NCBI GenBank assembly: GCA_000612485.1
Contig: CP007494.1
Span: 124,001-188,000 of the forward strand
DNA length: 64,000 nucleotides
From: Bordetella holmesii ATCC 51541
GTDB lineage: Bacteria > Pseudomonadota > Gammaproteobacteria > Burkholderiales > Burkholderiaceae_B
Direction: 5' to 3'
Shown here: in pieces, positions 28,803-42,747 of the stretch
Position numbering within the stretch: position 1 is the first letter of the stretch
How the letters are laid out: every line of letters starts with the position of its first letter
Translations under genes and position numbers: made by a program
Notes under the pieces: model-generated
What the model was told of the DNA's origin: nothing
Databases searched by the model: none
What the model saw: the letters and a program-made list of their open reading frames with translations, nothing else

Positions 28803-28892
28803 GGAAGCGTGGCCGAGCGGTTGAAGGCACCGGTCTTGAAAACCGGCAAGGGTTTATACCCTTCGTGGGTTCGAATCCCACCGCTTCCGCCA
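28803..28892 (+). tRNA. tRNA-Ser, anticodon UGA
   Basis: 90 nt with encoded CCA. The acceptor stem GGAAGCG pairs with CGCTTCC; D-arm TGGCCGAGCGGTTGAAGG; anticodon stem CCGGT/ACCGG around CTTGAAA with anticodon TGA; long variable arm (class II); T-arm GGGTTCGAATCCC. 67 bases before the tRNA-Leu, probably cotranscribed. Confidence 0.96.
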
Positions 28893-28959
28893 TACACACT
28901 GTGGCAAGCCAGGCGCACAGCAGTATGGCGCGATAGATTTGCAGTGCAATGCGCACTCT

Positions 28960-29267
28960 GCCCGAGTGGTGAAATCGGTAGACACAAGGGACTTGAACAA
29001 TTTGAGCCCTCCGGAGGAAACTCCAGAGGTGAAGCCCGTCAAATTCGGCGAACGCCCTGGATGCCCCGGCATCCGAGCCAACGCCGAGCCAAGCCCAGGC
29101 CCCGGCCCGGGAAGGTGTAGAGAGCAGACGGCGGGCACCTAAGGCTGCAAGGCTAAGGTGAAGGCGTGCTCCAGACCACCAACAGCGCGCGCTGGCGGCG
29201 AAAGCCGAAGTGGTAAGAAAATCCCTCGCCGCAAGGCGTGCCGGTTCGATTCCGGCCTCGGGCACCA
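28960..29267 (+). tRNA. tRNA-Leu, anticodon UAA, interrupted by a group I intron
   Basis: Two exons, 28960-28994 (35 nt) and 29218-29267 (50 nt), make an 85-nt tRNA. Acceptor GCCCGAG pairs with CTCGGGC and is followed by ACCA; the D-arm is TGGTGAAATCGGTAGACAC. The anticodon stem AGGGA/TCCCT closes a loop CTTAAAA only when the exons are joined, placing the intron between U34 and A35 of anticodon UAA. That is the same site as the tRNA-Leu(UAA) introns of cyanobacteria and plastids. The long variable arm and T-arm CCGGTTCGATTCCGG lie in exon 2. The 5' exon alone has no complete stem, so standard tRNA finders may miss the gene. Confidence 0.93.
28995..29217 (+). ncRNA. Group I intron (IC3-like) in tRNA-Leu(UAA), 223 nt, no ORF
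   Basis: The 5' splice site gives a U-G wobble: exon end CTT pairs with GAG of the guide (at 29004-29006) and exon GGG with the following CCC, leaving one A bulged. The core closely resembles the Azoarcus tRNA-Ile intron as I remember it: GTCAAATTCGGCGAA, AACGCCGAGCCAAGC, GAAGGTGTAGAGA (R element) and AGACGGCG...CACCTAAGGC. In helix P7 the Azoarcus pairing GACUA/UAGUC is replaced by GAGCA/UGCUC (29122-29126 with 29167-29171), a compensated change. P2 and P9 end in GAAA loops, and the last base is G, as required. Probably self-splicing in vitro; no homing endonuclease is encoded. Confidence 0.9.
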
Positions 29268-29277
29268 ATTCTCTGCC

Positions 29278-29307
29278 AATAGACCTCAACACGAGGTCTA
29301 TTTTTTT
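29278..29307 (+). terminator. Rho-independent terminator after tRNA-Leu
   Basis: Stem AATAGACCTC / GAGGTCTATT with a five-base loop followed by a T run, ten bases after the tRNA 3' end. Ends the tRNA-Ser/tRNA-Leu transcript. The following ~240 bases up to the amidase end hold nothing I can identify. Confidence 0.9.
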
Positions 29308-29548
29308 ATCCGAAACCCAACTCCCATGCAGCTTTACGGGCACCCATCGGCCGCCCAAGTCAACGCATAGCGCCCTACCTTGCAAGACCTCCCCTGAAGA
29401 TGTACCTCGCCCCTTTCAGGTCACAGGAAACGATCCCGACGTGCAGGCGATCGACGCACGGAGATGCCGTGCTGCCGGACCGTCGGGATTCCCGAACGCT
29501 AAGGGCTACATCAATAGAACTTGGATCGTAGGCCGTGTGCAGCCGCGT

Positions 29549-31014: not shown

Positions 31015-32320
31015 GGTTCATCGCGGAATAGCGTGGAGCCGTGCTTGATTGCCGTTACGCTTGATCCTTGATTTTTCAAGGATCAAGGCCGGGATCATGC
31101 TGGACCGCAAGACGATCGAGAGGTTGGGTGGGTGGGAAGGTTATCGGGTGGAGCGGGTCGTGTGGCCTGAAGGTGAGAGCCGGACGGTCACGATTTACCT
31201 GAAGCCTTCAGCGCGAACGATGCACTGCGAGCACTGCGGCAACCGATGTCGGCAGGTGCATGAGACGACCACGCGCCGGGTGCGGGATCTGCCGCTAATG
31301 GCGCTGCGAGTGACGCTGGTAGTGCCGCGTCGGCGGGTCTGGTGCGAGCAGTGCGGTGGACCGCATCTGGAGAGGCTGAGCTGGCTGGGCCGTTACCAGC
31401 GAGTGACCGACCGGCTGGCCGAGGCGGTCAGCCAGTTGCTTGAGTCCAGCAACATTCTGGCCGTGGCGCGCTTCTTCCAACTGGGTTGGCACACGGTCAA
31501 GGCGCTGGACAAGGCCCTGCTGCGACGGGCGATCCAAGAGCCGGACTGGAGCCAGATCCACTACCTAGCGATGGACGAGTTCGCTCTACACAAGGGCCAT
31601 CGTTATGCCACGGTCGTTGTCGATCCGATCCGCCGTCAGGTGCTATGGATCGGTGATGGCCGCTCGCGCGAGACGGCCAGAGCCTTCTTCGAACAACTGC
31701 CAACTGGGGTTGCCCAGCAGATCCGGGCCGTAGCGATCGACATGACGACGGCCTATGAGCTGGAGATCCAGGCCAACTGCCCCAACGCCGAGATCGTCTA
31801 CGACCTGTTCCACGTCGTGGCCAAGTACGGCCGTGAAGTGATAGACCGGGTGCGTGTAGACCAAGCGAACCAGTTGCGGCACGACAAGCCGGCCCGCCGG
31901 GTGATCAAGTCCAGTCGCTGGCTACTGCTGCGCAATCGCAAAAACCTCGATCCGTGCCAATCGGTAAAGTTGGACGAGTTGCTCCAGGCCAACCAGCCCT
32001 TGCTCACCGCTTATCTGATGCGCGATGAGCTCAAACAGCTGTGGTTCTACCAACACCCCGGCTACGCCCGCCAGGCATGGGATCACTGGCTGCAACAGGC
32101 TCGGGGCAGCGGCATCGCCGCCTTGGCTCACTTCGCGCTCAAGCTAAAAGCCTATCTGCACGGGATTCTGTCTCGCTGTCGCCACCGGCTCAACACCAGC
32201 ATCGTCGAGGGCATCAACAACACCATCAAAGTCATCAAGCGCCGCGCCTACGGCTACCGCGATCAGGAGTACTTCTTCCTCAAGATCCGGTCTGCATTCC
32301 CCGGTATTCCTCGATGAACC
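31015..32320 (+). mobile_element. ISL3-family element, IS1001-like (1,306 bp)
   Basis: Length 1,306 bp and a 406-residue transposase match IS1001 of B. parapertussis and its B. holmesii relative. Ends are imperfect inverted repeats: left GGTTCATCGCGGAATA, right (inward) GGTTCATCGAGGAATA. It sits within a poly-A tract: 11 A on the left, C plus eight A on the right, so the target duplication is hidden in A residues. The right-hand A run is the T tract of the glnB terminator. Confidence 0.93.
31097..32317 (+). CDS. tnpA: ISL3-family transposase (IS1001 type)
   Basis: 406 residues from MLDRKTIERLGGWEGYRVER. An N-terminal zinc finger (HCEHCGNRC, then CEQCGGPHLE) is followed by an HTH and the ISL3 catalytic domain with DEFALHKGHRYATVVVDPIR, VAIDMTTAYELEIQ and IVEGINNTIKVIKRRAYGYR. 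Complete and presumably active. Orientation is opposite to both neighbours, glnB and the amidase. Confidence 0.94.
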   Translation: MLDRKTIERLGGWEGYRVERVVWPEGESRTVTIYLKPSARTMHCEHCGNRCRQVHETTTRRVRDLPLMALRVTLVVPRRRVWCEQCGGPHLERLSWLGRYQRVTDRLAEAVSQLLESSNILAVARFFQLGWHTVKALDKALLRRAIQEPDWSQIHYLAMDEFALHKGHRYATVVVDPIRRQVLWIGDGRSRETARAFFEQLPTGVAQQIRAVAIDMTTAYELEIQANCPNAEIVYDLFHVVAKYGREVIDRVRVDQANQLRHDKPARRVIKSSRWLLLRNRKNLDPCQSVKLDELLQANQPLLTAYLMRDELKQLWFYQHPGYARQAWDHWLQQARGSGIAALAHFALKLKAYLHGILSRCRHRLNTSIVEGINNTIKVIKRRAYGYRDQEYFFLKIRSAFPGIPR

Positions 32321-41055: not shown

Positions 41056-41829
41056 ATGACGCCCACCAAACGTGCTTTGCTCTGGACCGTCGCGACCGGC
41101 ACGCTGACACTGGCTGGCTGCGCGAACCTGCAGAACATGGATACCAATAGCCTCATGGGCGCAGGCGGCAACGTCGCACGCGCCGTCAGTCTGTCGGATG
41201 CCGACATCGTGCAACTGTCAGACGCCGCCTGCAAGGAAAGCGATGCGCAATCGAAGATCGCCCCGGCAGGCAGCAACTACGCCAAGCGGCTCGACACGAT
41301 CATGGCCGGCTTCGGCGGCATGGACCTCAACGGCCAGAAGATCAACTACAAGGTCTATCAGACCGACGAAGTCAATGCCTGGGCCATGGGGAATGGCTGC
41401 GTACGCGTCTACACCGGCTTGATGGACAAGATGAATGACGACGAACTGCGCGGCGTCATCGGCCATGAGATGGGCCACGTCGCTCTGGGCCACACGAGAA
41501 AAGCCATGCAGACCGCGTACGCGGTAAGCGCGGCGCGAACCGCCGCCGGCGCAGCCGGCAACAGCGCAATCAGTGCGCTTTCCGCTTCGCAAATGGGGGA
41601 GCTCACGGAAAAATTCATCAACGCCCAGTTTTCGCAGGCGCAAGAGTCTGCCGCCGACGACTATTCTTTCGACCTGCTGACTAAGAAGAAGATGAACCGC
41701 CAAGGGTTGGTGACGGCATTTGAAAAACTCGCCGAACTCGATGGCGGCCAGAGCGGCCTGTTGAGCTCCCATCCGTCATCCCCCGCCCGGGCCAAGCATA
41801 TTCAACAACGCATCGACAGCGGGAAATGA
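41056..41829 (+). CDS. M48-family metalloprotease, lipoprotein (LoiP/YcaL-like)
   Basis: 257 residues. Lipoprotein signal with lipobox LAGC (Cys about residue 22: LWTVATGTLTLAGCANLQNM). Zinc site HEMGH in GVIGHEMGHVALGHTRK with the third ligand Glu in SQAQESAADDYSFDLL. Ends with SHPSSPARAKHIQQRIDSGK as in family members. Periplasmic quality-control protease anchored in a membrane. Start supported by AGAGGA upstream. Intact. Confidence 0.9.
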   Translation: MTPTKRALLWTVATGTLTLAGCANLQNMDTNSLMGAGGNVARAVSLSDADIVQLSDAACKESDAQSKIAPAGSNYAKRLDTIMAGFGGMDLNGQKINYKVYQTDEVNAWAMGNGCVRVYTGLMDKMNDDELRGVIGHEMGHVALGHTRKAMQTAYAVSAARTAAGAAGNSAISALSASQMGELTEKFINAQFSQAQESAADDYSFDLLTKKKMNRQGLVTAFEKLAELDGGQSGLLSSHPSSPARAKHIQQRIDSGK

Positions 41830-41841
41830 CGCCGGCACCGG

Positions 41842-42747
41842 TCAGGCTGAGGCCGGCGGCATGACCTGGCCGATGGAACGCGGATCGCGCGGCAGCCAGC
41901 GCGATGCCTCGACCTGCGCGATGAAGTCCAGCACCGCCCGATTAAATGCCGCGGGTTCCTCGAGGTTGATGGTATGGCCGGTTTTGGCCAGCACCAGCAG
42001 CCCGCTTGCAGGCAGGATCCGCTTCAGAAACAGCGAGGCCTGCAGACTGTGGTCATCCTCGTCGCCGGCAATGATGAGCGCCGGCACCCGCAGGTCCGCC
42101 AACGACTCACCCATGGTATCGAGCGCAGGTCGGCGCGCCTGCACCCCGCGCAGGGTCAGGGCAGCGCCACGGGCGTCGTGTTCGGCCAGCGCATCGGCGA
42201 ACTCCTGCCAGCCGCGGGCATCCTTGTCCAGAAACGGTATACGGGCAGCCCCCCGTGCGTACATGGGGCCATAGACCGCACTGCCAAGCGTCTCGAATTG
42301 CGCGGCTGCTGCCTGCGAAGCCGCCTGAAACGCCTGCCTGTCCGCCCCCATGGCGCCATACCCCGCGCCGGCGATGGTCAACGACCTCGCCCGCTCGGGA
42401 AAAGCCAGGCCGAAGTGCAGCGTGGCAAATCCGCCCATCGACAGCCCCACGATATGGGCCTGCTCGACGCCGGCATCATCCAGCACCGCGGCCATGTCGC
42501 GCACCGCGCGTGCCTGCGAATAGGCGTCGGCTGCCTCGGGAACGTCGGAAGGCGGATAGCCGCGCGCGTTGAAAACAATGCAACGATGGCGGCGGGCAAA
42601 CGCCCGCAGTTGCGGCTCCCAACTGCGCATGTCGCCGGCGAACTCGTGCACGAAGAGAACGGCCGGGCCCTCACCCAGGCTCGCGTAGCTCAGCCGCACC
42701 CCATCGTCGGTCAGTGCCTGGGGCAAGGGGTTCTCCTGGCGGCTCAT
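41842..42747 (-). CDS. Alpha/beta hydrolase
   Basis: 301 residues from MSRQENPLPQALTDDG. Ser nucleophile in IVGLSMGGFATLHFGLAFPE, oxyanion stretch VLFVHEFAGDMRSWEPQL (HEFAG instead of the common HGxxG), Asp in ALIIAGDEDDHS, His in LAKTGHTINLEEP. Last gene of the nine-gene operon; its ATG overlaps the preceding stop (ATGA). It could act like RutD or an ester hydrolase; the substrate is unknown. Confidence 0.87.
   Translation of the reverse strand: MSRQENPLPQALTDDGVRLSYASLGEGPAVLFVHEFAGDMRSWEPQLRAFARRHRCIVFNARGYPPSDVPEAADAYSQARAVRDMAAVLDDAGVEQAHIVGLSMGGFATLHFGLAFPERARSLTIAGAGYGAMGADRQAFQAASQAAAAQFETLGSAVYGPMYARGAARIPFLDKDARGWQEFADALAEHDARGAALTLRGVQARRPALDTMGESLADLRVPALIIAGDEDDHSLQASLFLKRILPASGLLVLAKTGHTINLEEPAAFNRAVLDFIAQVEASRWLPRDPRSIGQVMPPASA

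Follow-up and report, generated by a model that had tools for sequence, protein, structure and literature searches.

Group I introns in the tRNA-Leu(UAA) genes of cyanobacteria and plastids are inserted between U34 and A35 and are of the IC3 type. An intron in the tRNA-Leu(UAA) gene of Pseudomonas D0715, reportedly described by Vepritskiy in 2002, is said to agree with the intron considered here in host tRNA, length class and P8 motif; we know of no link between it and an integrative element. In the available sections of the published literature, tRNA-Leu(UAA) is given as the home of the cyanobacterial introns, and introns in the tRNA-Ile2 genes of Acidovorax and Burkholderia are noted in the available sections of the tRNAscan-SE 2.0 paper. 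A tRNA-dependent lysogeny, with a carried substitute tRNA, has been described in actinobacteriophages (PMC10865867, available sections). The elements ICEbphKF708 and ICE-KKS102-4677 have the attachment sequence 5'-GATTTTAAG-3', tRNA-Leu as the main target and trb genes, according to the available sections of PMC9960961 and PMC6563109.

A tRNA-Leu(UAA) gene containing a group I intron was identified in Bordetella holmesii ATCC 51541, within a window of 64,000 nucleotides (the whole stretch of DNA that was analysed; the features of the tRNA locus are all on its forward strand). The original prediction placed this gene at 28960..29267, split between U34 and A35, and its coordinates proved exact. 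The 5' exon (28960..28994) has U34 as its last base, the intron (28995..29217) is 223 nt long with a terminal G, and the 3' exon (29218..29267) encodes the CCA end. The exons were recognized from the sequence and by ARAGORN, and the intron by cmscan, covariation, ARAGORN and splice-site pairing. Excision of 28995-29217 gives, as had been claimed, an 85-nt class II tRNA; its anticodon loop is CUUAAAA. The same reading is obtained by ARAGORN with introns allowed, tRNA-Leu (taa) i(36,223), and the gene is not detected by ARAGORN without introns. At the level of sequence this anatomy is well established. The resident neighbour upstream is a tRNA-Ser(UGA) gene (28803..28892), identified by ARAGORN without introns and by homology to relatives. 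The gap of 67 nt between the two tRNA genes contains an element-like spacer (28903..28957), so called for its likeness to the segment directly 5' of the carried tRNA in the elements described below. A terminator-like hairpin followed by a T run is visible in the sequence at 29278..29308. A transposase-like open reading frame, presumably an IS1001-type ISL3 transposase, is present at 31049-32317. It is considered fairly probable that the gene is a functional foreign tRNA-Leu(UAA) gene, acquired whole by horizontal transfer, that has replaced the resident gene, with a Tn4371-like element as the probable vehicle.

In four loci (L034, L179, L191 and L167), the intron gene is preceded, about 160 nt upstream, by a 5' half that belongs to another tRNA-Leu(UAA). 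This half differs by genome, and the sequence behind it is nearly constant. A stricter regular expression for such a half, applied to at most 300 nt upstream of genes that had enough flank and had been chosen for their intron tRNA, detected a native tRNA-Leu 5' half at 22 of the 133 Leu(UAA) and 17 of the 53 Leu(CAA) intron genes. The anticodon of the broken tRNA is clearly that of the carried tRNA in 39/39 cases, and the spacing from the split half to the intron gene is 152-197 nt in 35/39. A first expression had given 23 and 18 rows, among which L202, L251 and L253 were doubtful; the stricter set still holds L253, at a distance of 8 nt, and L272, with the core TTTAAAA, and the sequence behind the core was inspected for the rows of the first expression, L272 excepted. 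Used alone, the split-half expression also matches intact tRNA-Leu genes, with 376 matches in all sequence searched. An element-end pattern that is blind to introns was found in 3 of 399 genomes (G029, G498 and G346), all of which were previously known to carry an intron tRNA behind the end.

Seven elements of about 26-78 kb were bounded on single contigs, and each splits a tRNA-Leu anticodon loop. The elements of G152 (28.4 kb), G151 (66.9 kb), G053 (25.6 kb), G035 (77.5 kb), G102 (73.4 kb) and G498 (66.9 kb) are located in tRNA-Leu(CAA), and the element of G029 (44.9 kb) in tRNA-Leu(UAA). The core is CTCAAAA, the anticodon loop itself, in six of the seven and CTTAAAATC in one. Joining the two halves restores an intact tRNA-Leu in all seven, and the single junctions give no tRNA. 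In the carried tRNA, the core is split by the intron, between CTC and AAAA or between CTT and AAAA. In the G152 element, a Pfam search identified a tyrosine integrase by the 3' half; the genes by the intron tRNA are DUF2274, TrbI and VirB8. Integrase homologues are present at the same end in G151 (84.5% identity) and G029 (66.7%), with trbI homologues at the opposite end; these are the three of the seven elements across which element genes were checked. In G053, G035 and G102 (L049, L055 and L056), the roughly 1.5 kb next to the tRNA holds no trbI. This gene was found near the intron tRNA in 14 of 23 loci, a count in which the query's own locus is included and one element appears twice, and was not found in the remaining nine, several of which have a short downstream flank and two of which (L173 and L207) have several kb. 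In what we take to be the layout of the Tn4371 family of ICEs, an integrase lies at one end and trbI with DUF2274 at the opposite end, and the G152, G151 and G029 elements appear to have this layout. The position of the core within the tRNA, together with junctions neither of which rebuilds the tRNA, points to tRNA-dependent integration of the bounded elements. Such an end with an intron tRNA-Leu(UAA) is also present in the genome of strain KF708 (L437), and its core suggests that this is the end of ICEbphKF708 itself.

These observations suggest a mechanism. The element would recombine at a core of 7-9 bp inside the anticodon loop of a tRNA-Leu gene and would leave the native tRNA unrebuilt, so that it must supply a substitute. 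The substitute, a tRNA-Leu with the same anticodon, would be brought just inside one end of the element. Because its anticodon is the same, it would itself hold the attachment core, usually less than 200 nt from the element end. In the carried copy, the intron would split the core and thereby hide the DNA site from the integrase of the element, and self-splicing would restore a normal tRNA in the RNA. From the position of the intron, we infer that it shields the rescue tRNA from the integrase. In the window, the carried tRNA would remain, the split native tRNA and the remaining element would be gone, and the transcript would have to lose the intron before UUA could be read by the cell. That the intron is an adaptation of the elements that hides the rescue tRNA, and that genes of the window type have outlived their elements as the sole essential copy, is put forward tentatively, as a proposal somewhat short of probable.

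The window gene itself retains few possible traces of an element. No split tRNA half was found upstream of it, and no trb or integrase relics were detected in the window by tblastn with four proteins. The spacer gave local scores of 34 with L207, 30 with L191 and 30 with L179 against the segment upstream of the carried tRNA; the score of 34 was reached in 0/300 shuffles, for which the maximum was 27. The likeness to an element end is weaker for the spacer of G036 (3/300 shuffles) and is not significant in G154, G156 and G158. The nearest relatives of the window gene behind a split half are L173 and L201, with 94.2% and 92.6% identity, respectively. The trbI gene lies near L201 and was not found in L173, the nearest relative, or in L207, the best spacer match. 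Since the spacer is the one part that resembles an element end, the window gene is at most a relic. It is probably a stranded rescue tRNA left after loss of the element, and this copy would have arrived on such an element.

Related introns also occur in phages and plasmids. At least 119 stretches with a related intron core were identified in viral contigs (L441-L559). An intron tRNA was called in 118 of the 124 viral loci examined, and 71 of these 118 were called Leu(UAA) among the matches listed; two integrase queries, a weak test, gave no match in the 118 loci. In the uncultured phage LR756511 (L374), a related intron end was observed, with an HNH-like frame, recognized by eye, just upstream of the P7 region; this frame is possibly a homing endonuclease inside the intron. 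The Gordonia phage Daredevil, in the available sections of a published account, integrates in tRNA-Lys-TTT, has no tRNA of its own and forms clear plaques. An unannotated intron-containing tRNA-Lys(UUU)-like gene was found in its sequence (L373 1419-1730, about 41820-42131 of the record), some 570 nt away from its integrase gene. The isotype match supports the idea of a rescue tRNA, whereas clear plaques argue against a functional one. Among 72556 plasmid records, 1285 match the window gene, 1258 of them over at least 80% of the gene. An intact-looking intron tRNA-Leu(UAA) gene was observed near aac(3)-IId in the Citrobacter freundii plasmid pCTX-M3 (L370 4001-4293) and in L371, the two places from which the placing in a resistance region is taken. 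The best relative among the loci compared is L317 (85.6%).

Whole genes could have been transferred without such elements, through homologous recombination or other vectors, the element ends being a side branch and the intron not protective. Most of the intron genes examined are outside an element setting today, since no split half was found within 300 nt in 111 of the 133 Leu(UAA) and 36 of the 53 Leu(CAA) genes, and this explanation also accommodates the introns in viral contigs and resistance plasmids. It is nevertheless judged unlikely, being at variance with the anticodon match in every one of the 39 cases, the spacing of 152-197 nt in 35 of them, the intron tRNA behind all three ends found by the intron-blind search and the element-like spacer in the window.

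The preferred reading, in which a carried gene replaced the resident one, was examined within the genus; a comparison with the tRNA-Leu(UAA) of other Bordetella had been suggested with the original prediction. In 15 genomes of the genus, two of which are only 73-77% complete, the UAA gene found is the native intronless tRNA-Leu(UAA) in ten and a foreign body bearing the intron in five (the window genome G000, G036, G154, G156 and G158). The acceptor stem is GCCCGAG/CTCGGGC in the five intron-bearing genes and GCACCCA/TGGGTGC in the native gene, in which GCATCCA also occurs, and the exons differ from the native gene across the whole tRNA body. When G156 was compared with the intronless G068, the flanks were 85% identical upstream (1141 nt) and 80% identical downstream (1197 nt). 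Between these flanks lie about 584 nt in G156, including the intron gene, and about 133 nt in G068, including the native gene. The window and G148 are 86% identical over 1176 nt upstream, and the homology with the intronless relatives G132 and G148 ends at the last base of tRNA-Ser(UGA). In G148, the native tRNA-Leu begins 11 nt beyond tRNA-Ser, and no homology to the window was found downstream within 1.5 kb. In the family sample, a full-length native gene was present in 0/18 Leu(UAA)-intron genomes, among the matches listed. The alignments show that the whole gene was replaced in place and was not invaded by an intron, and they do not support the implication of the original prediction that the intron sits in the resident tRNA-Leu(UAA). 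In another genome of the genus, G092 (L060/L089), an intron was observed in tRNA-Ser(UGA) after U34; this gene adjoins a divergent intronless native tRNA-Leu(UAA), and the upstream gene is the same as at the window locus.

The direction of the exchange could in principle be the reverse: Bordetella and its relatives would have had the intron gene from the start, and the intronless gene would be a newcomer. Achromobacter species have the intron gene and form a group of their own (value 90, within a set of value 95) in a tree whose Achromobacter rows were chosen by intron presence. Within the genus, on the other hand, the five introns in Leu(UAA) do not form one group and fall in at least three places beside other genera, some with Cupriavidus (99) and some with Lysobacter, Ottowia and Frateuria (96), which makes this direction rather improbable. 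A near-identical gene, within about 2 kb of 92% identity, is shared by the gammaproteobacterium Lysobacter concretionis (L179) and a member of the family of the window genome (L034).

Plain gain of an intron by the resident tRNA-Leu(UAA), through homing or reverse splicing and with retention as in cyanobacteria, is very improbable. The host tRNA is that of the cyanobacterial introns, as these are described in the available literature sections, and the introns cluster by host tRNA. In a tree of 250 distinct introns, the host label switches 14 times, compared with an average of 106 over 30 shuffles, and the intron lineages therefore mostly keep to their tRNA. Gain into the resident tRNA was rejected nonetheless on the exon bodies, which are unlike the native gene throughout, and on the flanks, which enclose a replaced segment.

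With the resident gene replaced, the foreign gene appears to be the only tRNA-Leu(UAA) of the genome. A search for tRNAs in the genome, made without introns, gave 55 matches; all of class II length were read, and three matches of class I length were outside the anticodon reading. The leucine anticodons among the class II matches were UAG, CAG (twice), CAA and GAG, and no intronless tRNA-Leu(UAA) was present among them. The window gene itself is missing from the 55 matches because the search admits no introns. The original prediction had considered the case of a sole tRNA-Leu(UAA), and this is the case indicated by the class II-length matches; its description of UUA as a rare codon agrees with a count over 38 long open reading frames of the window, a rough set, in which UUA makes up 36 of 1513 leucine codons. 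Genomes of this kind may appear devoid of tRNA-Leu(UAA), since the gene is missed by ARAGORN at its default and tRNAscan-SE 2.0 is, by the available sections of its own paper, not meant for such introns.

The fold of the intron was examined by cmscan and by covariation. The Infernal comparison suggested with the original prediction yielded a match over the full length of the Intron_gpI model (RF00028; E 5.8e-9), although the score of 42.8 bits misses the curated gathering score of 50, a library threshold. The E value and the covariation still support a group I intron. An alignment of P3, P4, P5, P6, P7 and P8 was made from 33 related cores, 32 of them distinct. In this alignment, 95.1% of the cells are paired and 20 of 42 pairs show two-sided changes; none of 500 shuffles equals this fold, and slid partners reduce pairing to 27-42%. 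P3 is paired in 99.5% of the cells and P7 in 100%, with both sides changed in three of the five P7 pairs, so that the paired differences in P7 claimed earlier are genuine and are kept as pairs across the cores. The window intron has the P3-P8 core with the P3/P7 pseudoknot. By core alignment, the 5' strand of P3 (29035..29040) pairs with 29130-29135, and the 5' strand of P7, GAGCA (29122..29126), with UGCUC (29167-29171). The GAAA-capped helices that had been described are present in the sequence as P2 (29008..29029, with the loop at 29017-29020) and as a GGC-GAAA-GCC hairpin in the P9 region (29197..29206).

The U-G pair and terminal G claimed for the splice sites are likewise there. By the splice-site pairing check, the internal guide GAG (29004..29006) can pair with the exon CUU (28992-28994), which allows U34 to form a U.G pair with G29004, and UUU (29001-29003) is able to pair with AAA of the 3' exon, giving a possible P10 of 3 bp in the pre-tRNA. 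The 5' splice pair is T-G in 131 of 135 Leu(UAA) intron genes and T-A in four, as chosen by the script. The long core stretches that were said to be common with the Azoarcus tRNA-Ile intron were recovered as 73.1% identity over 145 nt to L114, a tRNA-Ile(CAU) intron that we take to be the Azoarcus-type intron, and by this resemblance the window intron is IC3-like. The intron is probably spliced in vivo. A decayed gene or an artefact, to which the Rfam score under the gathering cut-off might point, is hardly credible and was rejected, as ARAGORN reads an intact tRNA once the intron is excised, the guide, P10, terminal G and covariation are kept, and the genome yielded no second UAA gene.

The intron type is not peculiar to Bordetella. 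With a covariance model of the core and a match threshold of E 0.001 or better, matches, some of them weak, were obtained in overlapping samples of genomes at four levels: the genus (8 of 15), the order (63 of 399), the class (53 of 369) and the phylum (27 of 299). A named scan gave at least 119 exact matches to one core string; the 80 matches listed include Achromobacter, Bordetella genomosp. 13, Bordetella ansorpii, Cupriavidus, Variovorax, Pseudomonas, Stutzerimonas, Lysobacter and Rhodanobacter, among others. The hosts in the tree are Leu(UAA) (136), Leu(CAA) (54), Ile(CAU) (32, in two positions), Arg(CCU) (15), Ser(UGA) (5), Thr or Thr-like (4), Asn(GUU) (3) and Lys (1). The host calls of ARAGORN were wrong for some rows (Ile2, Asn and plasmid genes), to which manual rules were applied as a correction; two rows were left as Thr-like, and an intron tRNA was absent from the calls in 13 of 296 loci. 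The window intron is of a known kind, of which it is an ordinary representative, and this kind is more widespread than was found described.

Few natural cases of a C-G pair at the 5' splice site are known. The Leu(CAA) introns retain the guide GAG and therefore have C-G in place of U.G, in 54/54 distinct genes (e.g., L049-L058 and L072-L075). A second intron family was observed in tRNA-Ile(CAU) between U33 and C34, directly in front of the anticodon (L137, L139, L141-L145 and others). Three core matches each are present in G318, G325 and G375, and those in G318 and G325 are in three different kinds of tRNA. An intron tRNA-Leu(UAA) and an intron tRNA-Leu(CAA) are adjacent, 261 nt apart, in L251 (827-1734). 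In L411, L412, L413 and L416, an intron tRNA-Leu(CAA) and an apparently intronless one are 2-5 kb apart in opposite orientation, an arrangement that is perhaps another small type of element.

Bacterial group I introns in anticodon loops may persist as useful to mobile DNA and not as neutral passengers. The proposal joins the literature on tRNA introns with that on ICEs and phages that target tRNA genes, and suggests a route by which an element could integrate midway along an essential tRNA. The case also shows a host tRNA exchanged for a foreign, ribozyme-dependent one. An intron in an element-carried tRNA is not reported in the available sections of PMC4033280, PMC3610870, PMC3984707, PMC8450103 and PMC11835236, nor in those of PMC6125680, PMC9960961, PMC6563109 and PMC10865867, in a search mostly of literature outside subscription; the word "intron" does not occur in the main text of PMC6563109, which describes ICEbphKF708. 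As far as this search reaches, two things are new: the replacement of the host tRNA, and the association with integrative elements, in which the intron lies in the attachment core.

The cyanobacterial and plastid introns have the same host tRNA as the window intron, whereas exons, vehicle and distribution differ, and the window-type gene moves among proteobacteria. The introns in tRNA-Ile of Azoarcus, Acidovorax and Burkholderia share the IC3-like core, and the Azoarcus and Ile2 introns differ from the window intron in host tRNA, in P7 sequence and in insertion after position 36. In the actinobacteriophage system, the vehicles are phages and no intron is seen in the carried tRNA (PMC10865867, available sections), whereas the elements described here are conjugative and bear an intron. 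ICEbphKF708 and ICE-KKS102-4677 are presented without mention of an intron tRNA in the available sections of PMC9960961 and PMC6563109, and the core CTTAAAATC reported here corresponds, as its reverse complement, to their attachment sequence GATTTTAAG as given there.
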